Shown piece after piece: positions 11,671 to 40,994 of a DNA stretch of 64,000 bases. The DNA comes from Lophium mytilinum (taxonomy: Eukaryota > Ascomycota > Dothideomycetes > Mytilinidiales > Mytilinidiaceae): the NCBI GenBank assembly GCA_010093605.1, contig MU004185.1:1794579-1858578 (forward strand). Direction: 5' to 3'. The notes beneath the pieces are model-generated. The model saw only the letters and a list, made by a program, of their open reading frames with translations. It was not told the origin of the DNA and searched no databases. The position numbers and the translations under genes were made by a program. The stretch's first letter is position 1. Every line of letters begins with the position of its first letter.

Positions 11671-12753
11671 ATGTCCCTCCTCCTCGCCCTCCCTGCAGAA
11701 ATCCGCCAGCAAATCGTCTCAGAAACCATCTCCGTCACAGTAGGCCACGGTTTCCACATCTCAATCGCGAGCACCGGCATCTGCAAGACTCTCCAAGCCG
11801 ACGCAAACGAAGTATTCCGAAGCTGGCTCCCCTCCGCCACGACCCGGTCCCCAATAGTCATTGAACGCGGCTCCGATGCCTGCTGGGCCGACTTCAATAA
11901 CCTCCTAAGCTTTCTCCACAAGCGCGCAGCGCGGCTAAACCGCCTTCTTACATGGCCCGGCATTGAAGTCGTCCAGATAAACGTGTTCAGCCAGTCCGGA
12001 TATCGTACGTGGGATTATTGGTGGAGTGTTCGCTGGGTAGACAAGCTACAGCGTCTACCCCGGAGCGTCAAGTGCGTCAAGCTAGACCTCACACTGAAAG
12101 AAGAAACGATGAGGGCGCTGCAGAAGGAGGATGTCCATGTGCGAAAGGTACACTGGTACGGCATTGTTACTATAGCCCAGGTAATCGTCAAAGGAGTGTT
12201 GGACGATCGTCCTGACATCTCGCTTGAAGTGGTGGGAGAGATTCCCGAGAGCGAGGTCGGTTCGGTTGCGCATGTGGCGCATCCGGACCCGGTCCCGGAT
12301 TTGGTTTCGGAACGCTGTTACGAGCTTGATGGGCTTGCTGAGAGGAACTATCGGAAGAGATTCGGGCCCCTGGAAGACGGTCTCCTCGCTAAGTTTGTCA
12401 AGAAAGTCACCGAAAGTCCTGAGAGGAGGGAAATAGCGAGATGGGCTAAGATTAAGGGGAAGAAGAAAAAGGATTTAAAGGAGACAAGACAGAAAATGAT
12501 AGAGACGAAGGCTAGCACGGGATTGGGCACCCGTGTGGCCGAGCTGAGAAGGCTTGCAAAGGAGGGACCATGGAGTTCCGAGGGCAACGCGACGACAGCG
12601 GACGGGGCGAAACGGCGGAAAGTGTTGGAGAAAGAGAGGGAAGGATTGGGCACTCGAGTGGCCGAGCTGAAGAAGCGTGCTAGGGAGGCTACATGGGAGT
12701 TCGAAGGTAGCGCGACAATTGAACACGCAGTGAAGCGGCAAAGGAGGAACTAG
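11671..12753 (+). CDS. Uncharacterised F-box-like paralogue family, member 1
   Basis: This is a single-exon gene of 360 residues with ATG at 11671. I do not recognise a named family, but three sister genes lie in this window. The N-terminus LLALPAEIRQQI (3-14) resembles the first helix of an F-box (LPxEIRxxI). Family blocks follow: CKTLQADANEV...WLP (about 38-53), KRAARL...WPGIE, LPRSVK..KLDLTL, then HWY and LEVVGEIPESEV. The last 110 residues are strongly basic. They end in two tandem copies of a roughly 40-residue unit, each starting GLGTRVAEL and finishing with KRRK or KRQRR, probable nuclear-localisation sequence. A nuclear or chromatin role, or a substrate-adaptor role, is only inference. 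Lineage-restricted expansion is likely. Confidence 0.8.
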   Translation: MSLLLALPAEIRQQIVSETISVTVGHGFHISIASTGICKTLQADANEVFRSWLPSATTRSPIVIERGSDACWADFNNLLSFLHKRAARLNRLLTWPGIEVVQINVFSQSGYRTWDYWWSVRWVDKLQRLPRSVKCVKLDLTLKEETMRALQKEDVHVRKVHWYGIVTIAQVIVKGVLDDRPDISLEVVGEIPESEVGSVAHVAHPDPVPDLVSERCYELDGLAERNYRKRFGPLEDGLLAKFVKKVTESPERREIARWAKIKGKKKKDLKETRQKMIETKASTGLGTRVAELRRLAKEGPWSSEGNATTADGAKRRKVLEKEREGLGTRVAELKKRAREATWEFEGSATIEHAVKRQRRN

Positions 12754-13762
12754 GCGGGAGACAGTGATGATACAGGTGCCAGTATTAGTGCGAAAAGTGG
12801 AGTAGTCATGGGTTAGGAGTGTTTTAACACTTCGAATACTGTCAAAGGCTGTTCCAAGGTACAGTCTTAGGCCACAAGTCTAGGCACACGGATTCATTAC
12901 AACTCTACTCCAACTTACCCACTCAATACCACTGTGAGGAGTAGCCTGGCCGCTGAGCAGGTAATTAGTTAAAAGGCAGTCTAATCTGTACTGCTCGAAC
13001 CTCGACATCAACAGTATTGTGCCATAAGTCCGGGCACCTGAAACTATTTCTGCCTTGCTCCAACTTTGCTTACTTAACATCAATGTTCGGGGTACCCTGG
13101 TTGCTGCATATCCAGTTGATCAAGAAGACTCTAATATAAACTGCTTGAAGCTTGACATCGCCCTTAGGTCCTTGAAACCCTGTGGGGATATACCCCAAGC
13201 AGTGGCGTACCAGTGTGCCCAGACTTATGGCCTGTCACTGTAGTTGACTCTGTCTGATATCAAGTTACTCCTTCACGAAAAGTTTTCTACGTCCTTGAGT
13301 AGGCCCTATAGGATCTTGTGGTTGCAGATTCAGATATCACAGTAATAGACCCTTCGATGAATCGATGAGAATGATAGCTCTGGATGTAACACACCTTTGT
13401 GCCGTTGGTACACATGGCATAGATATGCGACGTGGTATCGAGGTGAGGAACGTTTCCAAGAAGGCATGACGTTCCGTGGGTTGAGTCTCCCATTTTTGAC
13501 CTCACCATTGACTTCGACATCGTGATGATGGCAGATTGTAGCTACACTAGTGAACACACTGAAAGCCTCCAGAGACTGTGAAAGCGTGCGGATCTTCACC
13601 AGATTGGATCTCGCATGTACTACTCGAGTGCACATAAACCGCGACGTCTCCCTCACACTTTAGACACGCACCTTCACTCGCACCAGCCTTTCAAACCTCT
13701 ATCTCCATCTCGGACCCACTCACAACACCACCCCAACACACAAGCAGGGTCTCACCACAACA
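12754..13762. other. Intergenic region between family members 1 and 2
   Basis: Apart from the MITE at 12862-13240, this stretch holds the 3' end of member 1 and about 500 bp of upstream sequence for member 2, which becomes C/A-rich just before its ATG. No other gene is visible. Confidence 0.6.
12862..13240. mobile_element. MITE-like element, Tc1/mariner-type ends
   Basis: The element is 379 bp and begins CAGT and ends ACTG. Its 30-bp terminal inverted repeats match at 24 of 30 positions by hand alignment. Both ends are flanked by the dinucleotide TA (12860-12861 and 13241-13242), the target-site duplication of Tc1/mariner elements. No transposase is encoded, so it is non-autonomous. Inside, a second TIR-like start (CAGT...CCATAAGTC) occurs at 13012. 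The segments 12862-13011 and 13012-13161 are diverged tandem copies, with many C/T and G/A differences, so the element has been internally duplicated. It lies between family members 1 and 2. Confidence 0.75.
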
Positions 13763-14755
13763 ATGCCCGGCCCAACTCTCCTCACCCTCCCCGCCGAACT
13801 GCGGCAGCAAATCATCACCGAAACCATCTTCGCCGAGGTCACCGACGATGGCTACGAGATCTCCACCCCTCTGAGTGGCGTTTGCAAAACCCTCCAAGCC
13901 GACATCGACGATGTCCTTCCCATCTGGCTGCCCTCTACCAGCGCCTCTTCCGTCATCCTCACGACCAACAAAGCACCAGTGAACGGGCGAGGATTCCGAA
14001 GCCTCAAGAAAGAGCTCAAGAAGCGCGCCACGCGACGAATTGGGGGCGGTGCCTGGTCTGGCATCTCCGCCATCACGATCCGCGCCTACGAGGCGGCGCC
14101 TTACTACACCATCTTCAACACCTTCGAGCCTGTTAGACTCACCCAGACCGTACGGGAATTTCGTTGGCACAGTGGCCGGCGTTCGCTGCCTGCGAGTATC
14201 AAGCGCGTTGAGTTTGATCTCCGGATTGATTCGGCATCCTTACAAGCGCTGCAACAGATGCCGATGGGCAACCAGAAGGACTGGTGGTGCGAGGACCTAT
14301 GGACGGTTACGAAGTGCATCGAGCGATATACGGACGTCACTTTTGAGGTGGCTGGACGGCTTCCCGAGAGCCAGGTTGATGCGCTGTTGCATCGGCAGCG
14401 GAAAGGGGGAGTCCATTACTGGTACTGGAAGCAGGTGTATGCGAACCTTGAAAAAGACCACTTTGCTGGGTTCTTGGGGAATGTGAGAGAGGCGCGGGAG
14501 CGTCTCAAGATTGAGGAGGAGGCGGAGAGACAGAGGAAAATGGAGATGAAGAAATATAAGAAGGAGTTCGGCAAGAGGATGGCAGAGTTGAAGAAGAGGA
14601 AGCAGGAGAAGAATGGCGATCTGAGCACAGCGGGAGGCAAGCGTCTGAAGGAGGATCAGGGTGATGTTGATGGCGTTTCAGATGGGTCGTTCTTGGATCA
14701 ACCGTCGATGCCGTTCCGGTCTCGAGATAGTCTTCTGGATGGACCGGGCCAGTGA
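13763..14755 (+). CDS. Uncharacterised F-box-like paralogue family, member 2
   Basis: This is a single-exon gene of 330 residues with ATG at 13763. It shares all family blocks: LTLPAELRQQIITETI (7-22), GYEIST..SGVCKTLQAD (30-47), a WLP motif near 55, the degenerate block KRATRR...WSGI, LPASIKRVEFDL, and FEVAGRLPESQV. Its basic C-terminal helix runs KKEFGKRMAELKKRKQE, followed by a short acidic and serine-rich extension absent from the sister genes. The core closely resembles members 1 and 4. No enzymatic motif is seen. Function unknown; the LPAEL start and basic tail are the only clues. Confidence 0.82.
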   Translation: MPGPTLLTLPAELRQQIITETIFAEVTDDGYEISTPLSGVCKTLQADIDDVLPIWLPSTSASSVILTTNKAPVNGRGFRSLKKELKKRATRRIGGGAWSGISAITIRAYEAAPYYTIFNTFEPVRLTQTVREFRWHSGRRSLPASIKRVEFDLRIDSASLQALQQMPMGNQKDWWCEDLWTVTKCIERYTDVTFEVAGRLPESQVDALLHRQRKGGVHYWYWKQVYANLEKDHFAGFLGNVREARERLKIEEEAERQRKMEMKKYKKEFGKRMAELKKRKQEKNGDLSTAGGKRLKEDQGDVDGVSDGSFLDQPSMPFRSRDSLLDGPGQ

Positions 14756-15401
14756 TGGACCAACGGAGATCTGGCTATTAAGCCTGCTAGATACAGTCAT
14801 GCGTCATAGGTTTGGGCAAGGCCTCAAATCACGCTACCTTACCAAATTCACTTCTCCACGTGATGTTGTAAGGCTTTTGAGTACTCGAATGGCACATAGA
14901 ATTTGGAACAAACCCATAAGGTCAAAGAAAGAAATATAGAATTCGCCCAAGTGGCAAGCTCAGGGTCTTGTTCAGAGCCACGATTTGTGAGAGGGGTTCG
15001 TCCCCAACCTCCTCAATTTCACCGAATGGAGGGCTGAGAACGTGATTGGCTCTACCAAACTTTATCAGCTCTCTAATCGGAATCTTATAGTTCTTCGCAG
15101 AATCTCCTTGCGCTCTAGTTTCTCACTACACCTTCGACACTCAACTTCTAGCTCTGGCACATTTTACACTTACTCACTAACACCACTCGAGACTCTTCAA
15201 GAACTTACAACTTACTGCTGTCGACGCCTTCTGCACATACCTGTTCCACTCATACCACCACTCCGATCGTCGAACTGTGTTGGCTGGCCCAACTCTCACG
15301 ACCCTCCCTGCATACAGCCTCTCCGGTAGATTCGCCGCGACATCTAGCTCAGCTCTCAGCACCCTCTCTCTATCTCCCATCACTCCGCTACACCATACGC
15401 A
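14756..15401. other. Intergenic region between family members 2 and 3
   Basis: This contains the 3' end of member 2 and the promoter and leader of member 3. About 120 bp before the ATG of member 3 there is a diverged duplicate of that gene's own first codons (15280-15313, listed separately). Nothing else stands out. Confidence 0.6.
15280..15313 (+). repeat. Relic copy of the first codons of family member 3
   Basis: The 34 bp at 15280-15313 read LAGPTLTTLPA, against MAGPTLTTLPA at 15402-15434, with only a few base differences. The start codon is TTG instead of ATG. Weaker similarity seems to continue for about 25 bp downstream. This is a direct repeat about 122 bp upstream of the real start, best read as a remnant of a tandem duplication or a converted paralogue end. 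Confidence 0.7.
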
Positions 15402-16433
15402 ATGGCCGGCCCAACTCTGACCACCCTCCCCGCCGAGCTCCGCCAGAAGATCATCGCCGAGACCATCACCATCACCATCAGCACCACCACGCCCGTCTTC
15501 ACCCCTCTCGTCCACCTCTGCCCTCCCATCATCGCCCTGGGTATCACCGCAACCGCCGCGATCCTCCTGACCCTCTCCACCACCAACTTCACCCCCTTCG
15601 GCGACGTCTGCGCCCTCCTCCAAGCCGACATCCTCGCGCTCTGCGCCAGCTGGCTGCCCACCCCCACCACCCCCATCACCCTCTCGCAGAACACCCGCGC
15701 CAGCTGGGCCGCCCTCGCCGCCTTCTCCACCGTCGTCAACGCGCGCGCCGCCCGCCTGAACCGCCGCGCCTGGCCCGGCATCACGACGCTCACGCTGCGC
15801 TTCCTCGTCCCGACCTCCGCGCCCCTAGACGCCAATCTCTTCGAATCCATCGACCCGCCGTTCAAGTGGGCGAAGGAGCTACGCCGGCTGCCCGCCAGCG
15901 TGAAGCTTATCAAGCTCGATCTCTCGCTCCCCGACGCGCACATGACGCAGCTGTGTGCGCAGGAGCTCTCCACGCAGCGCGTCTTCTGGTACGAGTGTTT
16001 CCGCGCCGTGCGACTCCTGGATGATGAGGCCAAGCGGCGTGGTATCGTTATTGAGGTGCTGGGCGAGCTGCCGCGGAGCCAGGTCGCTGCGCTCGCGCCC
16101 GTGGCGGGGACGCCGGCGTATTTCACGATCTTTGGAAAGGTGGCCCGCATGATGCTGATGGCGGAAGGGTATTATCGGCATCGCTGGGGGGTGCTAGAGC
16201 ACTGCCGTCAGGGGGCTGTTCTGAATGGGTTCGTAAGGAGGGTTAGGGCTACCAAGGAGTGGAAGGAGGAGTGTAGGCAAGATGTTCTTCGCGGAGAGAT
16301 ATGGAAAAGGGAATACAAGAAGGTGATAGCGGAGCTTTCGAGGCGGATGTCGGCGCTGAAGAAGCGGAAGAGGGAGGAGGATGGGGAGGAGCTGGAGAAT
16401 GAGGAGGGCGCGAAACGGATGAGGACAGAGTAG
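15402..16433 (+). CDS. Uncharacterised F-box-like paralogue family, member 3
   Basis: This is a single-exon gene of 343 residues with ATG at 15402. Shared blocks are TLPAELRQKIIAETI (about 7-21), CALLQAD, ASWLP, NARAARLNRRAWPGI, LPASVKLIKLDLSL, FWYECF, IEVLGELPRSQV, and the tail RRMSALKKRKREE ending in KRMRTE. Unlike its sisters it carries about 35 extra, largely hydrophobic residues (roughly 28-62, with PPIIALGITATAAILL) between the first and second blocks. Codon usage is markedly C-rich in the first half, unlike members 1 and 4. No catalytic motif is seen. The hydrophobic insert could be an unspliced in-frame intron, though I see no clean GT..AG pair, or a true insertion. Confidence 0.8.
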   Translation: MAGPTLTTLPAELRQKIIAETITITISTTTPVFTPLVHLCPPIIALGITATAAILLTLSTTNFTPFGDVCALLQADILALCASWLPTPTTPITLSQNTRASWAALAAFSTVVNARAARLNRRAWPGITTLTLRFLVPTSAPLDANLFESIDPPFKWAKELRRLPASVKLIKLDLSLPDAHMTQLCAQELSTQRVFWYECFRAVRLLDDEAKRRGIVIEVLGELPRSQVAALAPVAGTPAYFTIFGKVARMMLMAEGYYRHRWGVLEHCRQGAVLNGFVRRVRATKEWKEECRQDVLRGEIWKREYKKVIAELSRRMSALKKRKREEDGEELENEEGAKRMRTE

Positions 16434-17632
16434 GCGAGGGGAGCGAAAGAGAAAGACCCAAGGCCAGGAGGATGTTTTCAATGTTGTCGCAATAGTCGCC
16501 GCAGAGGCGGGATATGGTTTGGAGGGTGCGCCATTGCTCTTGCTCGTTTGTCCAGCTACTGGAGAGCTGGAGTTCGAGGGAGGAAAGCGTAGTAGATGGT
16601 CTGGAATTGTCTGGATACCGCACTGCACGATTTTCGCTCTTGGTGGTATCCAATTTAGAGAGCATTGACGGCTGAGAGATACTCTTGGTTGAACCCAGTA
16701 TCGTGATTTTATACTCTTTGGTAGTTATGGCGTAGTCGAGTTTTTGTACTCAGATAATCGTTTGTTCGTGATTGAAATGACCCAGAAAGCTCGCCCTAGT
16801 TCCAGGATCATAAGCCTTCCATTCAGTCCCGGCCTTTGGAAAGGCATAGAAGTTAGACTCGTAGTGGTACAGAGCACGTGCTGCCGAATCGCAGCAGAGT
16901 TCGTGATACAGACTCGTAGCCTGTCGATCGGGTAGCAAAGGGGTTCCCAATGCCGCGGAAGCATCAAGTCTTACAAGCCTAAGACACGTTTAGCAGGTGG
17001 AATCCCGTATGACATAAAATACCCCTCTTCTCTAGACGTCAAGCTTCCCTACCTTCCAAGAATCGCAGCTCCAACACCCCAGCCAAGCATCGCGAGATCC
17101 CGTTGCGTGGCGCGCAACACAAACATTCGAGGCGGAGATGACTCCGACGAAAGCCCAGCGACGAGCATTCTCCCAGACACACAGACAGACAAGATAAGGA
17201 TGAGTGAGAAATTCTCTTTCCAGCAGCAGAAGCAAGCACCTTAGATTCAAGGATGGGTATCAATCATCTCAGAGTACCAATAGAACAACAATTCCCATCC
17301 CAGAATCCCTTTTTCCATAGGCAAGCAGCAAAGAAGCTCAGATGGCTCGGTTATCTCTCTCGCACTCTCTGAACTCGGTCTCGATCTCGATCTCGATCTC
17401 TCTCGCCCGCAGCAAGCAAATACAACAACAAGAAGCCCATGATTACCATCGCAAATGACCAGAAGATAAAAGGTGTCCGGACGGATTCAGAGACGAATCC
17501 CAAAGAAGTCGCACCAAGACATGCTCTCCACCCTCGAGTATTGGAGTTCGCCCGTGAGCAAATAGCCTTCTGTGTTCTCTCCGGAACGACAGAAGGGGAT
17601 GGGTGAACTCGCGTCAGTAATCAATGGACCAT
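16434..17632. other. Intergenic region, convergent 3' ends
   Basis: This lies between member 3 and the 3' end of the RRM gene. It contains a short TCTCGA hexanucleotide run near 17379-17402. The part next to 17632 is probably 3' UTR of the RRM gene. No protein or RNA gene can be supported. Confidence 0.6.
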
Positions 17633-18522
17633 CTACCACTGGCCTCCGCCCTGTTGAGACTGGCCATAGCCACCCTCGCCGCCACCTTGGCCACCGCCGC
17701 CGTAGCCACGGTCGCCTCCGCCGCCTTGGTAGCCTCCTCCGCCTCCGCCGGAGTAACCTGATTGCTGGTTGCCGCCCCAGTTGCCGGCACCGCCGCCATA
17801 GCCGCCTTGTTCTTGCAAGTTAGATTCAGGAGCTCTTGAGTGCGTTCTAGGTTGTAAACTCACCGCCTCCGCCGGATCGTCCACCGTAGCCTCCTCCTGG
17901 ATTAGAAATTTAGCATGGAACGTCCTGGAGAAAAAACGGGTTATCGAATCGCACCATAGCTACCTCCGCCACCGTATCCTCCACCTCCACGGCCTCCGCC
18001 ATAGCCGCCGCCTCCGCCGCCACGGGAGTAGCCTCCTCCACCTCCGCCGCCGCCGGATCGCTCAGAGGCCTTGTCGACGCGGATAGTTCGTCCATCGAAC
18101 CTAGGACTTGTTAGCATGCATGTGGGAGAATACCGAATTCAAGTGCCGTGCAAGCCATATTGCGGCACGGTCCAATCAAGTGGCGGGCCAGCACGTGGCA
18201 GAACAAAGGATCAAACATACTCGACGTTGTTCATGTTCTCAATCGCCTGGTCGGCCTCGCCCTCTTGAGAGAAGCGCACGAAGCCGAATCCACGGCTACG
18301 GCCAGTATCGCGGTCCTTTACGACAATCTGCAATCAGGTGAGCAGGATGTCGCGATGCGCGCGGCAGGGTGATGACGTACTGCCTCCTCGACGGTGCCGA
18401 ACTCCTCGAACTTGGTGCGGAGGGTGGCATCGTCGGTGTGCCAGGCAAGGCCGCTGGGGACTGTCAGTGATGTGCATGCGAAGTGAGGAGCGGTGGACTT
18501 ACCCAATGAACAGTTTGGACAT
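17633..18522 (-). CDS. Glycine-rich RNA-binding protein (single RRM)
   Basis: Six exons on the minus strand (18522-18503, 18453-18381, 18327-18221, 18100-17955, 17896-17864, 17805-17633) splice in frame to 183 residues. All five introns are GT..AG. The N-terminus [15 protein letters not shown] carries RNP2 (KLFIGG) split by the first intron. RNP1 is RGFGFVRF in exon 3. The RRM ends near residue 80 at [11 protein letters not shown]. The rest is Gly/Tyr/Arg-rich with RGG-like and GGYGG repeats and ends in GGQW. This is the architecture of cold-inducible or glycine-rich RNA-binding proteins, which bind RNA and often act as RNA chaperones in the nucleus and cytoplasm. Five introns in a 183-codon gene is high for this window, and regulated splicing is possible but not shown. 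Confidence 0.92.
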
Positions 18523-20553
18523 GGTTTCGGGGGTTTCGGACAGCGCTCTACCAAAGTCTCAATTCACACACTCTCAACAAATCGCGAACGGAGAAAGACA
18601 GGCATCGCAGGGTCGTCTGGCGACAGACGGAAAGTACAAAGAGGCAGGACAGGTAGGACAGGCAGGACGGCTGGAGGAGCCGCCGGGAGGTGAGAGCAAG
18701 CAGAGATGGCAACTCCGGAGAGCGAGGCAGCGAACAGCATGACGACGAAGGAACGAACTTTTGATTCTGGCTTCACGAGAGTGAAAGGTGGCAGCGCACG
18801 GTGAGCTGGTGCGCAGGTGGGTGGAAGAGGAATTGATGGAAGCTGGTGTAGGCGCAAGAGTTTGCGACAAGAAGTGGGTGTGAGAAGGGTTGGTGTGGGT
18901 GAGAAAGGTTGGTGTGGTGGAGATGGAGAGTGGAGGGGCGGCGGGGCAGATGAAAAGCAGGCAGAAAAGAGACCCCTCCAGTGGGAGAAGGGCGCTAGCG
19001 ATCAAAGCACTCACGCTACGGCTCAGTCGTCCAGGTGTGCTCAGCGACGGCTGTGACAGGTCGGCTTAGCGGTCGAAGCGCGGCGGATGCGTGGCAGGGT
19101 GGCCCGGTCGGTAGGGGAGCAGCTGTGAGCTTGTGAATTGCAGTGCAGTGAGGCCGTCTGATACGCTGGAGGTGCAGGAGGCGGGCGTTTTTGTATGCCG
19201 CTGGCTGGCTATGGACCGAGGGGCGCTGATATTGGCGCCATCCCGTGTCTAAAACATCATGCGGCCCATGGCTAGCTAGGCCCTATACGGCCCAATTGCG
19301 AGCAAGCAGGCAGCTGATGGGTCTGATGCATTGCGCACGCCATGCTTCACGGACCCGCTCCGATGCGCGCAGCAGGCTCTGCAGCGAGCCAGATGGATAT
19401 TGCGCATGCTTCGGTGTGTATCAATTCGCTTAACACGCAGAGCATCAGGGCACAAGCACACAAGGGCATCAGAAGGCAGCAGGGCGAGCGGCATTGTGGC
19501 ATCATTGGGCGTCGCGTTGGACAGAAGCGCGTGGGTTGCAGTGGAGGCGATCCCACAAAAGAAGCTTATCAAGATAATCGCGGTGCGGAGGCGAGCTGCT
19601 GGGCCTCCTTCCCCACCAAACACTGTATGCCTGCACCCACCCTGCCCCCGAGCCGGAATCGGCCTCTCGCAGACGGGCTGGTGTGCGTGGTCGGCCAAAC
19701 AAATCAGCGGCTCGTGCTGCCGTGGGATGCCCGGTCGGCAGCATTCGGGGTCGCCACGGCCACGGGACTCGGGATAGGGCTCCGTGAAGACGACGACGAC
19801 GACCATCTCGCGATCCCCGGCAGCATTCGTCGGCCTCAATCGTGGCTCTGAAAGGCACTGTGGCCGCAGCTGAGGGACAAGCGGTCTCGCCGGACTGCCA
19901 CAGATCTCGCCCGCGCCATGCATCATGCCTCTAACCTCTAGCCAGCAGCGCTGCATGGGGACAGGCACGCCAGCTGCAATCAACCGCTGCTCCCCGTCCA
20001 ATGCCATGATATTGCATGCTTCAGTCACGCGGCGAGCAAACTTACCGCAATCAGACTACCACAATCAGACTATGAAATCAAACTACGACAATCAGACTAT
20101 GGCTCTCAATTGACACTTCACGCTCTTCTCTGCCAGGCTGCCGTAGTATCTTCGGGTTGCGTGGTGTTGATTGCTCGTCATGTGGCAGGTGCTTTCCGCA
20201 TTGGGAAGCCGCAGCTGGATGCCTCCACCACATTGTCATCGTCACAGCGTCGTAGCTTTGATCTATGCACTTAGTGAACCTGCGAGCGCTGCAGCAAGCA
20301 AGAGCACCGTGATATCTCTGTTTGACCCTCCAAGCCGCATCGTCGCGCCCATCGTTACACAGTACCAGTCTGCGAGCGACCAAGAGTTCAGCCCCTCCGC
20401 GCTTCTCAACCATCCCCAAGGCCTCTGCAGTACGACGGCAGCTACACGTCTCGAAAGTCGGTGTGCCGTTGTGTCCCCCGAGTGTGAAAGCCACGTCGAA
20501 GCGCCTCGAGGAGTGTGTCGCCGGGCCTGGCTCCATGTGAAGCCTGTGGAGTC
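18523..20553. other. Two-kilobase intergenic region, divergent promoters
   Basis: This GC-rich stretch lies between the divergently transcribed RRM gene and the gene at 20554. Several long open frames exist, for example 250 codons on the minus strand at 19276-20028, but they overlap in opposite strands, lack familiar motifs and look like GC-driven spurious frames. Near 20050-20101 the motif AATCAGACTA occurs several times in close succession. No gene is called. Confidence 0.5.
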
Positions 20554-26853: not shown

Positions 26854-27060
26854 AGGGTATAGGAGCGATCATGAGAGACGATGGGATGAAATGAATATTA
26901 TTACTCCAATGCTGGAGAAGAACCATTGCGAGTTGAGATGTGACTTCGTCGAACCAACATCAGCGCCCTTATCACGATATATTGCACTGGGTTCTGGCTA
27001 CTTGACTGGCTCCTGTTTCTCCTGACACCGGAAAAATCCGCAGTTTCTATGACCCAAAAT

Positions 27061-27261
27061 AGGTTCCGTGCCAATAGTATGCCAGAATCGACTCTAAATC
27101 GTACGGACTGGCTCCCGTTTGTACTTCTCAGCTATGCGAGATTTACCCTGTGGTCATGGCCTAATATAAGACGTCGGCCACTTCGCATAACCTCGGAAGC
27201 TAAATCCCACTCTTCCAATAGCATGCTAACGTTGAGGCCAAATCGCGCGGACTATCTCCCC
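27061..27261. repeat. Dispersed repeat, copy A
   Basis: This roughly 201-bp segment is repeated in direct orientation at 28709-28909. Shared landmarks include GGACTGGCTCCCGTTT, CATGGCCTAATATAAGACGT and a terminal TATCTCCCC. Within each copy, a 40-bp motif starting AATAG(T/C)AT(G/A)C recurs near both ends. The pair could be remnants of LTRs of a short element or two copies of a MITE; neither shows clear terminal inverted repeats. Confidence 0.75.
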
Positions 27262-28546: not shown

Positions 28547-28708
28547 TTTCCGCTACAATGTCCACCGGGCGGAAACGCCGCTCAGTTTCACCCGGGACAT
28601 TACTTGCCGCCGAATAAGAGGCTGTTCTTGACATCAACATCTTACAGACCGGGCAAGAGGTAGGAATATTTTCTGTAGCATGTCTTTATGCTTGCTAACC
28701 TAGTATAT

Positions 28709-28909
28709 GGTCCGCGCTAATAGTATGCCAATATTGACTGTGAATCACATGGACTGGCTCCCGTTTAGACTTCTTAGCAGTGCGAGATTAACCCGTTGTT
28801 CATGGCCTAATATAAGACGTAGGTCACATCGCATAACCTTGGAAGCTAATTCCCACTCTCTTCTAATAGCATACTAACGTCGAGGCTAAATCGCATGGAA
28901 TATCTCCCC
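28709..28909. repeat. Dispersed repeat, copy B
   Basis: This is the direct partner of 27061-27261, about 1.65 kb away. It ends next to the 3' end of the F-box gene. Substitutions against copy A are enriched for C/T and G/A changes by eye. Confidence 0.75.
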
Positions 28910-28970: not shown

Positions 28971-30546
28971 TCAGCTGTCATCGGCACAGCACGAACGCCC
29001 ATAAGCGCTCGCAACCACACAACACGACTTCATCTCCGCCTCCTCGTTGACTCTATAGTTACTCCTCAGCTGGACCTTGAGCTCCACGCCCGCCTCCGCG
29101 TAGGAGTCTAGCAAATCCTTCGGAGGCGTCCACACCATCGCTTCGAACGAGATGCCGTCTGCAACAGTCAAGCCTGTCAGCAACTGCTCTGTCAGACGAA
29201 CGCAGCGGAGGCGAGGGAAGGCGGTCGGCTTAAAGGTCGCGAGTTCCTGGATCCAGTGGTAGTATTTGTGCGGCAAGTCGATCATGTTCTCGAGTTTCGT
29301 GACGTGGGGTGCGGAGAGGCTGAAGACGGCCGAGTAGAATTGGAAGTAGATCTGAGAGTGTGGTTAGGTTTTGCTATAGCGTGATTTATTATGGAGAGAA
29401 ATGTACCTCTAGTTCTTCTAGGTTCGGCGGTAACAACTCCCACAACCCGCGGCGGTCCTCGTGGTCTGCAACGAAGCCATGATCGATGTCCATGTGCTCG
29501 CCGTAGGCGAATGCGCCCCATTTGAACCAGAGACCGGGCGCGACGCACATTTTTCGCAGTTTTGGGAAGTTGCTGAAGTCGGCTCTGGTGTTGTCGGTGT
29601 TTGCCCATGCGCGGGGGTCGTTTGTCATGTGTAGCTCTTCTAGGGTGTGTTGTACGGGCTGGAGAGCTCGAGCGATTGCGGACGGGGTAAGATAGCGATC
29701 TGACGCCGTGAGACCGTAGTCGGGATCTCGGGCGCGACAACTCCGGCCTGGGAGAGTTGCTTTCAGCCGTTGAAGCTTTGGTGCGTATTTGAGAATTGCT
29801 TCGAGGACTGGTAGGGAGATTCGATACGTTCCTAGGTCGAGATGCTTGAGGCTGGAGGGCGCAGACAATCGCGATGCAAGGAATTTTTCTAAATTGGGGT
29901 TGAAGGTCTTCAGTGGCCCAGTCCCGCGTCCAATGTCGCAGAACTGGGATGCGGTGATTGTTTCGACTTCCGGTCGGATCATGACTGATGCCAGCTCGGT
30001 CGAGCTGAGTCGGCCCAGGTCTAATGCATATGATCGCAACGGGGACTTGGAGCTCTCTTTAAGGATGTATTTGGTATGATTGGGAAAACTGCGGGTGTGC
30101 CCAGTGATCGGGTTTCGGAATAGCTTATCTGATATCTCAAGGTGTCTTAGATTTGGCAAAGCCTTGAGCAGCGTCTCCAACTCGCCTTCATTTGATACGG
30201 TTGGCCTCGAGATCGCGGTCCAGGTGACACAGAGATTTTTCACCAGAGGACCGATTGAAGTATTATTTTCAAGACTGCGGAGTAAAAAATAGAGAGTGTT
30301 GCAGTCTGGATTCGGATTACCGCTGCGAGAGACTATATCGCTCCAGTGCTTTCTATCGGTGGTTGTCGGATATAACGAAAGACCGGAGCAGACTAGGATA
30401 TCAATGGCGCGGTAAATGTGAGTTCTAGCAGGGGCGAGCAATCGACGACACGTCCTTGAGACCCTCAGCAAGTCCCGCTTGGAGTGCTCGAGGTAAGCTA
30501 GAATCTCGAGCAAAAGGTCATCCGGAAGATCCGTGAGAAGAGCCAT
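28971..30546 (-). CDS. F-box protein with LRR-like region
   Basis: Two exons, 30546-29407 and 29351-28971 on the minus strand, are joined by a 54-nt phase-0 intron and give 506 residues. The F-box is at residues 5-45 (LTDLPDDLLLEILAYL ... RVSRTCRRLL). Downstream are irregular leucine-rich segments such as ALPNLRHLEIS, SSLKHLDLG, APKLQRLKA and TLEELHM, consistent with an LRR-like solenoid. F-box proteins bind Skp1 and present substrates to SCF ubiquitin ligases; the target here is unknown. The C-terminal exon has WIQELATFKPTAFPRLRCV, typical of fungal F-box proteins. It has no homology with the LPAEL family in this window beyond the idea of an F-box-like start. Confidence 0.87.
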
Positions 30547-31013
30547 TCTTTCTCTTAGACAGTGTGCATATATTTAGCACGATACGAGGAGAGTAGAGTT
30601 GTGTCCTAAGGGTGGAATATCTTAGAGTATGCAAGAGCGCGTTGTTCAGTGAGCTCGTGATGAAGGCCTAGGCGGTTTTTTTGCCTCCGAAAGTTTTTTC
30701 ATTGGATACTGGGAAGACTACAGATCTGGCGATGAGTGTGCCTAGACTAGGAAGCTGTTTTTGCGTAAAGATTGAGGAAATTCGAGGCGAGGTTGACGGC
30801 AGACGTTCAAATATCTTACGCTGCGAGTCAGCGAGGCTATTCCAAATTTGGCAATTTTCATACGCCGCCTTAGCTTCGCGTACAACCACTAGGCAAGCAA
30901 CACCTCTCTCTTTCATTAGCATCCATTTATGAACGTCTGCGTATGGTGACGATGCGTATGAGGACCTGAAGCAACTTCTTCCAAGACCCGTGTCCCTACT
31001 AGCCAATCGATGA
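30547..31013. other. Divergent promoter, F-box gene and DUF1294 gene
   Basis: About 470 bp. A 188-codon minus-strand open frame crosses this region and the DUF1294 gene, but it is the shadow of that gene. No regulatory motif is identified. Confidence 0.6.
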
Positions 31014-31532
31014 ATGTGGTCTCTCCTCAATCTCAACAACATCATGAATCCATCAAGCAACAGACGAACTACAGCCCTGTACAATCCCTCCATTGGCCAG
31101 TTCGATAAATATGGCTTTCGCAGAGTACCTCGAAAGGTTCCACAGAACGCCCCTCGGAACAGAGTCCGTCTAGAGAAAAGGCCAATAACCGTAGCAACTT
31201 TCATCGGATCTGGCGCCTTCGCTGTCCCAGTCATTGGAGGATTGCGCCTATGTTACCGTGGCACTGCTTGGCCATTGATTTGGACATCCGCCATGAGTCT
31301 AGCGACTTTCATCATGTACGGCTACGACAAGTACCGATCTCGCAACTCGGGATGGCGCGTTCGAGAGACTACGATGCACTTATTCGAACTGCTAGGGGGC
31401 TGGCCAGGAGCTCTGCTAGGTCAACACTTTTTCCAGCATAAAACAATGAAGAAGGCATTTCAGGCCCAATTCTGGGTCATTGTAGGGATTCATCAAGTGG
31501 TCTGGTTCGCGACCTGGGGCAACGTTTCATGA
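31014..31532 (+). CDS. DUF1294 membrane protein
   Basis: This is a single exon of 172 residues with ATG at 31014; a second in-frame ATG at 31044 is possible. After a basic N-terminus come three hydrophobic segments, about 60-83, 88-105 and 150-168. Between the last two lies the DUF1294 signature: MYGYDKYRS, W-R-V-R-E-T, then LFELLGGWPGALLGQ and FFQHKT. DUF1294 proteins are small predicted membrane proteins found in bacteria and fungi; no biochemical role is established to my knowledge. The bacterial flavour of the family suggests old horizontal transfer, but nothing in the local composition is unusual. Confidence 0.88.
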   Translation: MWSLLNLNNIMNPSSNRRTTALYNPSIGQFDKYGFRRVPRKVPQNAPRNRVRLEKRPITVATFIGSGAFAVPVIGGLRLCYRGTAWPLIWTSAMSLATFIMYGYDKYRSRNSGWRVRETTMHLFELLGGWPGALLGQHFFQHKTMKKAFQAQFWVIVGIHQVVWFATWGNVS

Positions 31533-31975
31533 AAGCGTATGATAGTAGGCCATACGGCGGATATGCTACTGCTCGAATGCCGTTTCGAATGCTAGACATC
31601 GTTCTCAGGAGCAGTCCCGTTGGCGGAAAACCTGCCATTTCCCCAAGATCTCGAACGAACGTGCACATTTGTAAATTGTCACGGCAAAGCACAGAAAAGG
31701 GTGGTCATCAGCGTTCCCGGGAACCTCAGAGTAGGATTGTACGTTGAACATCACACCCTAGAAAGGAATCGTCGAAGAGGACCGAAACCCATGATACACT
31801 TTTCAATACTCCCCTAAGACATCATTCCAGAAGACCAAACCATTAAAAGTAGGAAACCCGTCATAACCCGTCGTATCTTCCAAACAGCCGTTGTTCTCGT
31901 CCCGATATGTTATCGTACACTCCTGCCGCCGGACTCTTCACACATCCCTAAGCCGGCCCTATTGCCAGGATGCAT
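31533..31975. other. Intergenic region, convergent 3' ends
   Basis: About 440 bp between the DUF1294 gene and the small membrane protein gene, both ending here. Nothing recognisable beyond presumed 3' UTRs. Confidence 0.6.
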
Positions 31976-32342
31976 TCAGCGACCAGTGAAGCCGGAGGTT
32001 AGGTCATCACCAAGATCACCAGCCTTATCGCCGACAGGGTTCTTCAATCCTCCTCCAAGGGCATTGCCGAGGCCATTCTTCAGGTCGTTCACGTCTTTCT
32101 GGTCGGATTCGGGCATCTTGCTGATTTGGTCTGGCAAACTATCAGTACATAGCTAAGGTAATAACATGGTGGGTGTGCGTACCTTTCATGAGATAAGAAG
32201 CTTTGTTCTCTCCCATGGTCTCGAGTGCTTTCTTCTCCATAGCTCTCTTCAGCTCTGGGGGAATGCCGAAGAAGTAGACGGCGAGGGAAATCACGGCGAC
32301 AATGCCCGCGAAGACAGTGAGGACGGACGCGGTAGTAGGCAT
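31976..32342 (-). CDS. Small conserved single-pass membrane protein
   Basis: Two exons, 32342-32183 and 32130-31976 on the minus strand, splice in frame (GTACGC...TTGCCAG) to 104 residues. Residues 5-25 form a transmembrane helix (SVLTVFAGIVAVISLAVYF). It is followed by GIPPELKRAMEKKALETMG and ENKASYLMK before the splice, then DQISKMPESDQKDVNDLKN and a Gly/Asp-rich tail. I recall similar small proteins across Pezizomycotina, but without a function. The short lumenal N-terminus and cytosolic amphipathic helix suggest a tail-exposed membrane microprotein; the location is unknown. The first exon alone would run on into the intron and miss the conserved tail. Confidence 0.8.
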
Positions 32343-33083
32343 GGTGCTGGGTTTGGTTGGTCTGGTGAGCTTTAGGTAAGGTTTTGGGGAATGGAGAAGT
32401 GGAGGGGGGAAATTTTAGTTCAGGAAGTAGCAAACTGTCAGTGAACGAGAAAGCAGCAATGATTGCCCTGTTCATAAATAGGTATTTCGTGCATATTACC
32501 GCCCATGACGTCGGATCAGATCGACGCTTCCTTGGAACACGGGCCAACCTTCCCTGCCGTTGCCCAGCTCGCCTTACAACAAGGAAGAAAACGCCACAGC
32601 TTCAAGCCGTGGGCACGCCTCTAACTCCTGGACCCGTGAGACTCGCCGCCTGTTGCTCGGGAGGAAATTGTGTTATAAAGAAATTCTTATTTCGGACCCG
32701 CCAGCCTCGTTCAGGAAATGCCTAGAGAAATGCTGACTGACCAGTACTGCTGCTCAGCCGCAAAATTCAGCCCCAGGCGCGTTCAGGAGCAATGCTGGCA
32801 CAAGCCCCCACCTCCTCCCAAACCACGCAACCCCTCGACACGCCAATTCAGCGCTGAAGCTTCCACGCTTAAAGTCTCTGATATTTCCTATCCTCACTCG
32901 CCTCTACCTGCCCTGCTCCTCGAATCCACTCTCCACACCTCACCATCCATTCTCCAACCTCTTTCTCAGAGCTCTACAGTTCTACCCCGCCTCTCTGATA
33001 GCACGCTTGGCAGCCTGCTCACGAAGAACACCCCTCGCTGACAGCGCAACACTTGAGGCTCTGCCTTAGACGTCGACTTCACA
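32343..33083. other. Divergent promoter, small membrane protein and CaM-kinase
   Basis: About 740 bp. The 200 bp before the kinase ATG are C/T-rich, a typical fungal leader. No ORF or motif can be supported. Confidence 0.6.
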
Positions 33084-34572
<1,489 letters not shown>

Positions 34573-35028
34573 GGCCAGCGCCAAGCACTCCTGGACGATC
34601 CCTTACGATTCCTGTTCATTGTTTTCCTTCTTCTCGGGCGATTGTTGATTGTTGATGGGCTAGCGTCGCCCGTAGTTGGCCTGTAATTGTTCTCTTAGCG
34701 ATACCCTGTTGGTAGCAAAGGCCCAAGCAGGGAAAATGTCTAGACGCAGAGTGCGCACTCGATTGCTTCTCCCAATACACGAACATCGCTGAGACGGCGG
34801 CCTGATGCTGTGAATGAGATGTCTGTAGTCCATATTTAATGTGCAATGTGGCCCGTGCGGCTCACGTGACGCAACTCTCCCCAACACGCCCTGCCCAAAA
34901 CGCCAGGATAGCGAACGCGAATGAGGCCCTGTTCACGCCCGCCGTCGCAACCACCACAACGCCGGATCTGAGCCTAGAGATACCGAATTTCTCACTGACC
35001 TCGCCGAAGCGACCTAGCTGCAGTAAAA
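34573..35028. other. Intergenic region upstream of RSC4
   Basis: About 455 bp, with the 3' end of the kinase gene and the promoter of RSC4. No distinct element is seen. Confidence 0.6.
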
Positions 35029-37839
35029 ATGGACCGCGAAGCCAAGCGCAAGGCGGCCGGCAATGCGACGCTGGACCACGAGGGTCGCGCAGCCAAACGC
35101 CAGAAGTTGCCGGTGAGTGAAATCAAATGCGCCCGTGGTGAGAGGGTGGGCGGCGTGCAGACGGCGAACAGCGGCTTTTGGTGGTTGGGATTGGGCAAGA
35201 TGCTCCTTGTCGACGAGCGCGACGCTTAGGGCTCGACGACCAGCAGCATCTCCCACCTCGCACCTCCATGCCCCTCCGCACCGCACGCCCGTCGAACGCA
35301 GCGCCGCCGCTATCCACCGCCGCGGCCGCGAGCCTGCGGGATGCACAGGAACAGCATGACTGACGCGATGGATTGCAGGGCGACGCCGACCCCGTCATCG
35401 AGACGGTCGAGACGACGACGACCGTGGGCCTGAAGTTCGTCGACTCGCTGAAGGCCGCAAAGGACAAGACGTGAGTGCCTCCTGCGGCTCGGGACTGCGC
35501 CAGCCTCGCCTGGGTGCGATCGAAGAGCGTGTATATGCGCCTGCTCAGCCGCTGACAATTTGCTATAGAGGTCGCCCGATTGCTACCCACTTCCTTGCGC
35601 TTCCGGACAAGGTACGTCTTCTACACTCATGGGGATAGGCCTGGGCTAACAACTGCTGCAGAATGCACTCCCCGTCTACTACGAAGAGATCCTCCTCCCT
35701 GTCGCAATTGACACCATCGAGGTACGCATGCCTTTCATTCCCCACCCATACTCTTTAAATACACCGGGAAGGCTGTTTAGTCTTCGGGTACACGGTCTGG
35801 AGATGCGTGGACATCTTCCACTGCTGGGGGCTCACTCATACACTCACTAGACGAAATATAGAGCGCACTCATGACATTGGAACATTTGCTGACGGTAGTG
35901 AAATCAGACCAAGCTCAAAGCCGGACAATACTCCTCCCTCGCTCAGGTCGAAGGCGACCTCAAACGGCTGGTCCACAACGCGAAGACCTTCAACGACAGG
36001 AAGTCTCTCATCTACGACGATGCAGAGCGGGTTCGAAAGACGGCATCGAACTTTATGGTCAAGCACAACCCATCCTATAGGGACCCTGGATACATTGCTG
36101 TGCCGACGCCGATACCAGAGCATCTGGTGAAGGAGAAGGAGAAGGAAAAAGAGAAAGAGAATGGAGTCACCGGATCGGCCGTCAAGCCTGCGGCTGGAGC
36201 CCACGACAGTGCTGATCGCTCACGACGTGCGGCGCCTGCTCAACACACCCCAACAGTGAAGGCCTTGCGCGCAACCAGCCGATCTACTATTGTAGAAGTC
36301 GACAATGCCGACTATAACAACAAATCTTTCCAACAAGCCCAGGAGCAAATCGTTGAGCAATTGATCCATTATACCGAAGCCGACCTTCAGATATTCCAAC
36401 CTTTCATTAACCTGCCAAACCGATCCCTGAAGGATTATTACCAAACCATCAAGACGCCAATGTCGCTAATGGGCGTCAAGAAGAAGGTTCAGGGGGTCAG
36501 GGGTAGAGAACCGGCAACAGGTTTCACAGATTTGAAGAGTTGGAAGGCATTCGAGGATGAAATGAGTCTGATTTGGCGGAATGCCAAAACTTATAATGAA
36601 GACGGCAGTGACATATTCAACCTGGCTGTGGAGTTCGAGGTATTATATTCTCCCTCTACGATATTGAACCGCGTTAGCTAACAGCCTCAGGAAATCTTTA
36701 GGCAGCGTCTTGCAGAAGCAAAGTCGAAAGTGGAAGAGCCGCCACAGCCGAAGCTGAAGATCAACATGTCCGCGCCAAAACAACAGTCTATCAAATTGAG
36801 GTTAGGGGGCATCAAAGGAAGCCCTACTCCTGGAACCCCGACGCCGGATACACCAGCCGGCCGCAGTTCAGGCACTCCAGGTGTTATTGTCGACAGCGGC
36901 GCCCTAGAGAGGCAGCGAAGCCACGTCCAAGCCAGCATGAACGGGCAGAGACCGACTTCTTCCGGTACACCGTCGCAAGTTCAAGGACCTCGCAACCCAT
37001 TCGGTGGTGGTAGGTCGGGATCAGGATCCATCCCTCCTCTTAGCGGCGATCCAAGCTATAGTGCTGCCGCATCTCCAGGCTTGAACGGCGTCAAGACAGA
37101 AACTTATCATGCTCAATCCCCTGCCCTTAATTCGATTCGCCTCTCCAGCGCAGCTCCTGAGGTGCAGAACCCACGCCTCAGCGTTCCTATGCATACACCG
37201 CTCGGCGGCTCAACGATGCCGCCACCGCAACATATAACGCCACGGCCTACAAGTGGGAGCCCTCACCCTCTCCCGAACATGGGTCAGTCTTTCGGATACA
37301 ACCCACAGAGCTACAGCACGCAACCACCCCCGGCTGCATTTGAAAACCACGCACGCGCCGCGGGCAAATGTAAGTCTTTCGACATCCTATATCGTAATCA
37401 CTTACACTAACGTCGTCAAAAAGCTGGCTCAGATGCCCTACTCCCATCGATACAACTAAACACCCACCCGCTCCTCGTCCAGCAGAAACCTTGGTCCCAC
37501 TCCATCCCCGCCTCGCGCGACAGCACTCAGCAGTCCCTCACTCTCACCCTCCCCGCCGCGTACCACTACCTCCAGATCGTCCCGCACATCCCGGTCGCCA
37601 CGACGTCCCGCCTCTACCGCCTCTTCGTCACGGTAAACAACACCCGCATGCTGGAAGTCACGCGGCAGGACGGCCAGAAGGAGAAGGGCCGGCCGGTGTT
37701 TGAGGCTAAGCTCCAGCCGGGCGTTAATAGGATCGAGGTCGAGGCGGTCGCGGAGAAGGAGAAGGGCAGGAAGAGCGATGGAATGGGCGAGGTGGAGGGG
37801 GAGAAGTGCACGATTTTCGTGCATCTTATGAGGCCGTGA
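35029..37839 (+). CDS. RSC4: Chromatin remodelling complex RSC subunit Rsc4, tandem bromodomain
   Basis: Seven exons (35029-35112, 35379-35470, 35569-35611, 35662-35721, 35908-36639, 36691-37369, 37424-37839) give 701 residues. Bromodomain 1 (about 60-125) is assembled from four small exons: FLALPDK, PVYYEEI, then KLKAGQYSS and NAKTFN, whose Asn is the acetyl-lysine-binding residue. Bromodomain 2 (about 243-335) has FINLPNRSLKDYY, the PMSL block and NAKTYN. A Pro/Ser-rich linker follows, then a beta-rich C-terminal domain (about 565-701, with HPLLVQQKPWSHS and IFVHLMRP) characteristic of Rsc4. RSC is an ATP-dependent nucleosome remodeller; Rsc4 anchors it to acetylated histone H3. Start and splice phases all agree. 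Confidence 0.93.
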
Positions 37840-39986
37840 GACAGCTTGGACGCCTGCTGTGCAGGACCGGACGTAAAGCCACTGTTATGTGGCCATCGAC
37901 TGTTGGTGTTGGTTTCTGCTTGCGGCAGTACGATGGCCGCTCAGTAACTAAGCATAACTGCAAAGGGCGAGGTAGCACATCTGGGTAGTATCACGGTTGG
38001 CGTTTTCGGGTTTCGGACGTGGGCGAGTTTGATGATGGAGTTATTGTTTAGGGGTTTTCTCCTTGGAGGCGTCTGGAGGGCAGTGGTCCAGCGCTTTGTT
38101 GTTTCGTGCATAGTGTTCTTTCTCTTCTTTTTGCCTGGTGGCTAGCCACCTAGGACTCTTTTTGGGGGTGTAGGATTTGTGCTCGGAGTGTGGGTAGAGG
38201 GAGGGCATTTAGGTTGGGGTGGTACTGCGGAAGCGAGGCTGGTCAGGTAGTAACATCAGAGTTCAAGTCTTAGGTGGTGTGCATGGCGGAGTGAGGGTTG
38301 GGGTAGGTAGGAAATTTTAGATCGTGTGTTTTCTATTCATCATAAGTTTGAAGATCATGGTGTTAGTGGGCGAGATCTCTCTTTCGTTGGCGTGCGGTGA
38401 TGCATAGGGCTATCGTATTGATTGAGAAGGTAACTAACGGATTGTGGTCAGGTTTAACATGGGAGCGCCTGCGCCCATCTATGGAGTTGAGTCGCGAATA
38501 CCGTCGCATCGGAGTGTATTGAAAGCCTTGTAGAGACCATGGAGTCTGCAAGAGTGCAAGGCTACATAGGCACCGGATGTTTCGAATTTCAGCGCATGTT
38601 GAAGGCCCGTAGGCACGCTGGTTTGTAGGTGTTTGGCCCTCCTTTTTCTCGGCGCGCGAGCGGACCCCACCACTATTTCGATGAAATCGTATTATTATCT
38701 TCCCAAACCTTCGCCAATCATACTCTGCGACTAGACGTATCCCGTCACGGTGTCGTTTTCGTGCTAGCATATGTGGTTGTTGAGTTATCTACGAAAAGGT
38801 GGGTTGGGCCTCGAAAGTCGAGAAAGTCGTCTCGCTCTGTGCTCGATAGCTTGGCGGCCGCCAAGAGTTTCCGGAAAGGTTCACGTCCCGGGGCTTTCGG
38901 CGGCCGAAGCCTCTGGGAAGGCGGTCGCGGAGGCCGCTGAAAAGGAGAGGGCCGCCTGCAGAGGGTTTCAACACCTAGGTGGTGAGTACTGAGAGTAAGA
39001 TGGCGTAGTCCCTGCTAATTCAAACTCTTAGAGCAGGTCTCCGGATTATGCATACGCAGTATGAAGGCGTTTGTGCTCCCTTTTCCCCAGCACAGCTGCG
39101 GACCCCACCCCTATCTCAGTGGCCGCGCAATATTTCCACCGAAAAGGTGTTGCAGCACGTGGGGAATGGAGCTGCGGAGATGGAGCACGGGGAACGAGAA
39201 GAGCGAGTTTTTCAGGTACTCGCGGGTCCATCAAGCTAACCAAGAGACAGCTAGATACCCTTCACCCCGGCCTTCCAATCGATCGATCCTTACGTCTCGC
39301 GCATAGGAGCAAGATACAATGGGTCGTCAAGCAGCTCCATGCTTCTGAGGGGGACGTGGATTCAGTCGTTGAATGGACCATCACCCAATTAAAGGACAAA
39401 GCCTTAAAGGTCATGAAGGAAGACAACCAAGATGCGCAGGATGCTATAGAGCAGCTCGAGTTGCTGAAGAAGCAAGCAGTATGCGAGAGAGACTTTCAGA
39501 ACCATGCTGTATTTGCAAAACTTTCGGAGAAGGCAAACAGCCAAGGGTCATTACTGGCAGCTGGCAAATGGTATAGCTGATAACATGTAAAACACAAAGG
39601 TTACGATGGGACAAAGATCGCATTCATGAGGTTAAGTCGCCAGATATCTGGGTCACCACAAAAGTGTCTGCATCTTCTTCTATTCCCTTCTACTTTTGGT
39701 ACTGTACATCTTGACGGGTGGACGGGTGTCTGGCTTCTTATCTTATTCACTACATGACAGACGCTACTAATTCCAGCCCTGAACCTTTCACCACAGGAGA
39801 TTAAGAGTTTCCAAATCTTTACGACGCAGCACCTACTTCTACAGCTCTATCATCATCTCCTCTCCACTCGCTTTACACACACCACCACCCTTTCGGCCGC
39901 CTCGCCTCACCACCAAACCACAACATTATCACAGTCTCAGTCGCCCTACTTCGTTGCGCCTGTACCTAACCAAACGCCAAGTCGCA
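37840..39986. other. Intergenic region downstream of RSC4
   Basis: About 2.1 kb. The first 900 bp show nothing. A possible spliced gene of unknown type lies at 38771-39580 (listed separately). The last 200 bp before 39987 are a C/A-rich leader resembling those of the other family members. Confidence 0.5.
38771..39580 (+). CDS. Possible uncharacterised gene, structure unresolved
   Basis: An open frame ending at 39580 contains a coding-like, charged helical stretch from about 39230: KLTKRQLDTLHPGLPIDRSL, then IQWVVKQLHASEGDVDSVVEW and EQLELLKKQA. It has no ATG before this stretch, so an upstream exon is required. A candidate first exon begins at ATG 38771 (MWLLSYLRK) and ends at a strong donor, GTGAGT at 38982, but I could not find an acceptor that matches its phase. 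The family is unknown. It may be a decayed gene. Confidence 0.25.
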
Positions 39987-40994
39987 ATGTCGAGCACCAC
40001 TATCCTCAGCCTGCCCGCCGAGCTCCGACAGCAGATTGTCGCGCAAACCATCTCTGCTACAATCGACAAGAAAGGCTATCACATAACCACTCCATTCTCC
40101 AGCGTCTGCAAGACCCTGCAAGCCGACGCGAACGAAGTCCTTTCTCTATGGCTCCCCACTGCTAGCGCCGATCCACTCGTCTTCGTCAAGAACCCCGACC
40201 CCGAAACTTTCAAGCATTTCCATGCCTTCCACCAACTCTTGAACGAACGCGCAGCTCGACTGAAAAACAGCGCGTGGCCCGGTGTCTCAGAAATCACGAT
40301 CCAGGTCTTCGATCAGGTCTGGAACGGCACAAACTTGCTGAAAGGCACGCATGAGGTTTGGAGAATGAGCATGGGTGCGGCGGTCTACAGCTCCCAGTGC
40401 TGCGACTGGGTCACTCGGCTGGAAGGGCTCCCAGACTCCGTGAAGACGGTCAAGTTCGATCTCACTCTTGGCGTAAAAGAAACGGAAGCGGTGCGAGAAG
40501 CGGAAGAGTCTATGCAGAAGATCTTCTGGTACCGGCTTTTGCAGATGGTCAAAGTGATTGTGCGGCCTTCCCGAAGCCTTCTGAGCTCGGATCGTGTGAG
40601 CACTGTCCAATATGAGGTGGTTGGGACGTTTCCGGAGTGGATGGAGGATGCTATGGGTACACCGTCGGAAGTCGAACTCAAGTACTACAGGGGGGAGCCT
40701 GTGAGCTACGGCGAGGGCCTCTTTGCTGGGTTTATGAAGAATGTTCATAAGAAGCGAGAAGCGATTATGTTGGAGATGAAGACCGCGGCTGAGAAGAAGG
40801 CCAAGAAGCAGCTAGCCTTAGAGAACGCGAGGGAGAAGATGAGGAAGAAGATGATGGTTAAGAAGGACTTCGGCAGGAGGATGGTGGAGCTGAAGAAGCG
40901 GAAGAGGGAGGTGGGAGATGTCGGGGAGCAGTCTAGCCATACTTCGAACGGAGTCAAGCGGCAGAAGACGGAGGACGGAAGTGTATTTAGATAA
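39987..40994 (+). CDS. Uncharacterised F-box-like paralogue family, member 4
   Basis: This is a single-exon gene of 335 residues with ATG at 39987; the frame extends upstream only to a TTG. It carries the full set of family blocks: LSLPAELRQQIVAQTI (7-22), GYHITT..SSVCKTLQADANEV...WLP, NERAARL...WPGV, LPDSVKTVKFDLTL, IFWYRLL and YEVVGTFPEW. The tail is basic, with FGRRMVELKKRKRE and GVKRQKT. The central region also has a FAGFMKNVHKKRE block shared with member 2 (FAGFLGNVREARE). It lies 23.5 kb from member 3 with unrelated genes between. No function known; a nuclear role is inferred from the tail. Confidence 0.82.
   Translation: MSSTTILSLPAELRQQIVAQTISATIDKKGYHITTPFSSVCKTLQADANEVLSLWLPTASADPLVFVKNPDPETFKHFHAFHQLLNERAARLKNSAWPGVSEITIQVFDQVWNGTNLLKGTHEVWRMSMGAAVYSSQCCDWVTRLEGLPDSVKTVKFDLTLGVKETEAVREAEESMQKIFWYRLLQMVKVIVRPSRSLLSSDRVSTVQYEVVGTFPEWMEDAMGTPSEVELKYYRGEPVSYGEGLFAGFMKNVHKKREAIMLEMKTAAEKKAKKQLALENAREKMRKKMMVKKDFGRRMVELKKRKREVGDVGEQSSHTSNGVKRQKTEDGSVFR

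Follow-up and report, generated by a model that had tools for sequence, protein, structure and literature searches.

What kind of protein begins like an F-box protein, ends in a basic tail and answers to no named family? Four genes raise this question in a 64,000-nucleotide stretch of the Lophium mytilinum genome (assembly GCA_010093605.1, contig MU004185.1, positions 1,794,579 to 1,858,578 of the forward strand), which we refer to as the window. Many multi-copy families of filamentous fungi begin with LPxELR and are often labelled F-box-like, and an initial annotation of the locus described the four genes as a locally expanding, single-exon family with a start of this kind. Here we ask whether the genes form a family, how old its copies are, what its head, core and tail are predicted to be, and how it compares with families that have a name.

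Four genes and their shared blocks

The list of open reading frames bears out the annotated starts (11671, 13763, 15402 and 39987, all on the + strand) and the arrangement of three genes in tandem with one some 23 kb off, the fourth gene lying 23.6 kb from the trio. Each gene was placed as an open reading frame and by homology.

11671 to 12753, + strand: family gene 1, 360 aa, with its tail module present twice
13763 to 14755, + strand: family gene 2, 330 aa
15402 to 16433, + strand: family gene 3, 343 aa, with a 29-residue insertion
39987 to 40994, + strand: family gene 4, 335 aa, distant from the tandem trio

Full-length BLASTP between pairs of the four proteins gave E values of 1e-18 to 1e-48. 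When the K/R-rich tail was removed, all six pairs of cores matched at E 8e-17 to 1e-40, with scores of 64.7-127 bits set against a chance level of 25.8 bits, the best obtained over 100 rounds of shuffled cores. Of the 431 columns in an alignment of the four proteins, 45 are invariant, and the indels fall between the conserved blocks. Judged by these sequence comparisons, the four genes are a real, homologous family with shared blocks, as had been proposed. Beyond these four the window yielded no further intact copy: the unfiltered four-protein profile, searched against the 1486 six-frame stretches that reach 25 residues or more, gave nothing else better than E 1.6.

Closer inspection of the alignment recovered LPAE[IL]RQ[QK]I near the N-terminus of all four proteins. 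The block CKTLQAD...V..WLP, assigned by the initial annotation to three members, is seen in three, with gene 3 reading CALLQAD, and in the reduced form CxxLQADx7WLP it extends to all four. The other blocks held in part, with gene 2 departing from each of them: RAARL is present in three proteins and reads RATRR in gene 2, while the adjoining WPGI is found in two, with WPGV in gene 4 and WSGI in gene 2. Likewise, LPxSVK..K.DL is present in three proteins, gene 2 having LPASIKRVEFDL instead, and the WY of the W-Y motif is present in three and reads WC in gene 2.

Gene 3 carries an additional segment between the first two blocks, located by alignment and assessed by splice enumeration and a duplication test.

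15504 to 15590, + strand: 29-residue in-frame insertion of gene 3, placed by the alignment before the LQAD block

Gene 3 has 61 residues between LP and C, where the other three genes have 31, 32 and 32. Of 318 candidate splices of gene 3, the 185 that kept more than 150 residues were scored with a profile built from the other three proteins. The unspliced reading reached 162.1 bits versus 161.2 bits for the best spliced one, which removes 84 nt (15541-15624), so that the scores favour neither a single-exon nor a spliced gene 3. Judged by eye, this splice has one point against it and one for it: it would delete the CALLQ of the conserved block, but would bring an earlier C to 31 residues from LP, as is usual in the family. 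The best spliced forms of genes 1, 2 and 4 exceeded the unspliced ones by 9.5, 0.7 and 6.6 bits (best of 639, 488 and 618 candidates, respectively), gains that we judge to be best-of-many effects rather than introns. The insertion itself gives a weak sign of internal duplication, with 43 of 2000 shuffles scoring as well.

Age, selection and duplication history

Local expansion, as claimed at first, draws no support from the divergence of the copies. Given that identity among the four is 31-39% over aligned codons and that Nei-Gojobori dS runs from 1.02 to 1.85 among pairs, above 1 and close to saturation, the four genes appear to be old duplicates. A tree of the four cores has a single inner branch, which joins genes 1 and 3 and genes 2 and 4 with support of 68/74, too low to fix the order of duplication or the origin of the distant copy.

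Signs of later duplication are nevertheless visible in the tail of gene 1 and upstream of gene 3. The former was detected as a self-match of 76 columns at 80% and by translating both units, the latter as 28 bp at 89% and by gapped local alignment to the gene 3 start, which 0 of 2000 single-base shuffles equalled.

12520 to 12750, + strand: basic tail module of gene 1, duplicated in tandem and in frame, period 41 codons, units of 41 and 36 residues
15281 to 15363, + strand: decayed partial copy of the gene 3 start in the 5' flank of gene 3, with TTG for ATG

We also considered whether constraint on the four paralogues has relaxed, so that they do nothing important and are heading for decay. The dN values (0.61-0.77), the decayed fragment beside gene 3 and the indels between blocks are all consistent with such a course, as is the upper range of dN/dS, up to 0.73 full length and 0.87 for one core pair. 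The ratio as such is below 1 in all six pairs, at 0.35-0.73 full length and 0.29-0.87 for the cores, and counts in favour of the adaptor reading preferred below, although with dS so near saturation the figures are rough and unreliable. However, four uninterrupted reading frames of 330-360 aa that have drifted to about 35% identity while keeping their blocks from end to end would not be expected without selection, and we regard decay as very unlikely.

A genome active in RIP would hinder fresh duplicates. The four genes are without RIP-type mutation, their indices standing at 0.39-0.73 for TpA/ApT and 1.07-1.34 for (CpA+TpG)/(ApC+GpT), unlike the AT-rich block at 56000-64000, where the sequence shifts sharply to about 26% GC and the indices are strong (1.8 and 0.1, respectively, computed on 56200-64000). 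This block holds a 75-bp exact direct repeat (57063-57137 and 63926-64000, the second copy reaching the window end), whose copies are perhaps the ends of a mutated transposon, and an inverted repeat lies at its border (55983-56022, 42 columns, 90%). Elsewhere in the window, a direct repeat joins 27059-27261 to 28705-28909 (205 columns, 83% identity), and a short tandem duplication (2277-2348 and 2343-2410, 72 columns, 90%) falls within an open reading frame with an Eisosome1 domain. The other gene content of the window includes TAF2 and a bromodomain protein, together with an open reading frame at 534-1760 (+) that matches the last 26 positions only of the HET (heterokaryon incompatibility) model at E 0.00098, below the Pfam cut-off, and could be the 3' portion of a HET gene.

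Predicted head, core and tail

From an alignment of the four sequences we obtained a core model of gene 4 with a mean pLDDT of 66 and a pTM of 0.66 (the five core models ran from 66.4 down to 50.9 in mean pLDDT), in which residues 1-60 score 59-77 in blocks. Its elements are H11-19, E23-27, E30-34, H38-46, H48-54, E65-68, H72-91, E102-106, H123-147, E154-158, H163-171, H174-192 and E208-212, where H is helix and E strand. The full-length model of gene 1 scored lower (mean pLDDT 56, pTM 0.45, first 60 residues 37-46) and begins H-E-E-H-E-H-E, the same order as the gene 4 core model; the two models share the same four sequences and hence are not independent. Both begin with a helix and two strands, go on through three helix-strand pairs and close with helices and a strand; the first helix of those pairs is split in two in the gene 4 core model. 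After the first helix, all four proteins are rich in alternating beta-branched residues (TISVTV, TIFAEV, TITITI and TISATI), which fits the predicted hairpin.

These models bear on the F-box-like start proposed by the initial annotation, since the N-terminus is predicted, with moderate confidence and from four sequences, as helix, beta hairpin and helix rather than as the three-helix fold of an F-box; at that confidence, this is the outcome by which the annotation itself would have its proposal refuted. In addition, the Pfam F-box models matched none of the four proteins and none of 10 fragments in an hmmscan reported up to E 10, although few matches weaker than about 0.1 pass the filters of HMMER. 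A true F-box gene of the window, at 29389-30546 (-), served as positive control: its open reading frame (29392-30546) had Pfam E values of 5e-9 for F-box-like and 1.4e-5 for F-box, and it found SKP2 in the PDB at 7e-4. The family may still consist of divergent F-box proteins, in which LPAELRQQI would form the first helix of the F-box and VCKTLQAD would correspond to its VCK..LA.D helix, with Skp1 binding, a place in an SCF ubiquitin ligase and a substrate-binding core. To the eye, LPxE..I, VCKxLxAD and W follow one another as they do in an F-box, and hhalign of the N-terminal profile against the control F-box pairs CKTLQADAN with CRRLLAPAR, though over 13 columns and at a probability of 0.6%. 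The family core aligned to the whole control gene at 0.4%, the aligned part falling outside the F-box, and all of these profile comparisons have low power with three to four sequences on the family side. Set against this reading, in addition to the hairpin between the helices and the Pfam result, no F-box chain appeared among the PDB matches, reported up to E 10, of either the core or the N-terminal profile, and the LP-to-C spacing of three family genes is 5-6 residues longer than that of the control (26, by eye). Collectively, the Pfam models and the predicted fold do not support an F-box in the family head, and we consider a divergent F-box unlikely.

A Foldseek search of the PDB with the full gene 1 model returned nothing at or below E 0.001 among the best 50 shown, and the core gave the same result among the best 50 shown from the PDB and from BFVD. 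With models of this quality, such a blank does not speak for a new fold. Two viral F-box proteins appeared in BFVD (ranks 8 and 11; E 0.65 and 0.74) and were set aside as chance, with TM at most 0.21. We nonetheless give a slim chance to a lineage-specific family with an undescribed alpha/beta fold, whose members would be nuclear adaptors with a constant LPxELR/LQAD head and fast-diverging loops, maybe a non-Skp1 offshoot whose F-box-like start acquired a beta hairpin.

The basic C-terminal tail reported at first is present: the final 110 residues contain 25-32 K/R alongside 16-21 D/E, so that the tails are acidic as well. Two K/R clusters, 12-17 residues apart, lie near the end of all four proteins (KRAR/KRQR, KKRK/KRLK, KKRK/KRMR and KKRK/KRQK), and residues R288, L292, E298, G312, K314 and R315 of the tail, in gene 1 numbering, are invariant. 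Because shuffles of K/R-rich tails give the two-cluster pattern in 4-16% of cases, the pattern alone is weak, and stronger evidence comes from a module that aligns in all four tails and is duplicated in gene 1. In a bipartite nuclear localisation signal, a pair of K/R clusters separated by about 10-20 residues takes the protein into the nucleus, and we infer from the tail sequences that import into the nucleus is the likeliest predicted role.

Alternatively, the proteins could be nuclear DNA- or RNA-binding regulators, in which the basic helical tail would bind nucleic acid directly and the N-terminal part would dimerise or bind a partner. The K/R content and the long helices predicted in the tail of the gene 1 full-length model lean this way, as does a DDX23-like match in the gene 4 tail (E 0.067), although at 14.6 versus 27 bits it falls below the Pfam cut-off and was taken as chance. 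The abundant D/E, the low model confidence in the tail and the finding of no nucleic-acid-binding domain at cut-off in Pfam or NCBIfam all argue against it, and we hold this reading to be quite unlikely.

The reading that we prefer, to which we give roughly an even chance, is that the four genes stem from old duplications in a filamentous-ascomycete family that joins an LPxELR alpha/beta head to a basic tail and serves in the nucleus as an adaptor or scaffold. In such a protein an N-terminal LPAELRQQI helix would be followed by a beta hairpin and the CxxLQAD helix, then by an alpha/beta core in which strands and helices alternate as far as about residue 215, and finally by a long basic helical tail with its paired K/R clusters. 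The tail might carry the protein into the nucleus in the manner of a bipartite signal or hold nucleic acid, while the N-terminal alpha/beta part could bind proteins as a module of the broad LPxELR type of fungi, similar to 2EXR and DUF7730. The variable loops would then give each paralogue a partner of its own, and Skp1 binding would not be needed. The locus suggests that an F-box-like label can be wrong, for here a start with the look of an F-box by eye failed the F-box models and is predicted to form a hairpin. Were the fold borne out by a deep alignment, it would help to separate true SCF adaptors from a second, unexplained type of fungal family.

Comparison with named families

The description of the family as unnamed agrees with our searches of Pfam, NCBIfam and PDB sequences, which returned no name for it, and no description of the family was found in the literature searched. 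Pattern searches gave 266 matches in prokaryote genome contigs and 63 in viral contigs, none of which was confirmed as a relative. No Pfam domain rose above its cut-off in the four proteins or the 10 fragments. We took as chance an NCBIfam cobalt-factor methyltransferase match in one of the four members (E 0.051) and, all below cut-off, the Pfam matches to DUF7096 in gene 1 (E 1.2) and to N-HEAT_ATR (0.15) and Sigma54_CBD (0.16) in fragments. In the PDB, the full four-protein profile matched five sequences, all to the tail, at E 0.41-0.82, the N-terminal profile of three members matched one chitin-binding protein at E 0.19, and the core profile had no match at E up to 10.

The best Pfam match in three of the four members was UBM (PF14377), at E 0.03-0.11 for whole proteins and 0.0022 for the best fragment, which raises the idea of ubiquitin-binding proteins in which LPAELRQQI would act as a UBM-type motif. 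The likeness consists of LP followed by a helix-like stretch. All of the scores lie under the Pfam cut-off of 23.3 bits (at most 14.1 for whole proteins and 17.8 overall), 15-19 residues are matched, the fragments were hand-chosen, gene 3 has no match and the family has one copy of the motif only, which together make ubiquitin binding extremely unlikely.

To the F-box and F-box-like families (PF00646, PF12937) the likeness is LPxE at the family start and VCK further on; the family differs in lacking a model match, in its longer spacing and in its predicted beta hairpin.

Many Pezizomycotina proteins start with LPxELRxxIY followed by CRQIxAEA and bear names such as 2EXR and DUF7730. 2EXR is fungal, with a helix-then-strand layout, and DUF7730-type fungal proteins have an LPxELR helix followed by a CRxIxAEA-type helix; DUF7730 is not known to have a basic tail. 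No match to 2EXR (PF20150) or to DUF7730 was reported by hmmscan at E up to 10 for the four proteins and 10 fragments, on the assumption that our library copy held both models. A passage of PMC9621593 gives 2EXR two conserved ExR motifs and describes the cluster from which it was built as mostly unstructured in AlphaFold predictions. All four family members have ELR or EIR near the start, like the first of these motifs, but there is no second ExR pair among the invariant columns, its expected place reading TLQ in three proteins and LLQ in one. As for DUF7730, the C[KA]xLQAD of the family resembles CRxIxAEA in spacing and type, and the family differs in having a basic tail and no hmmscan match. 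Although it is placed in neither, the family resembles 2EXR and DUF7730 in its general look.
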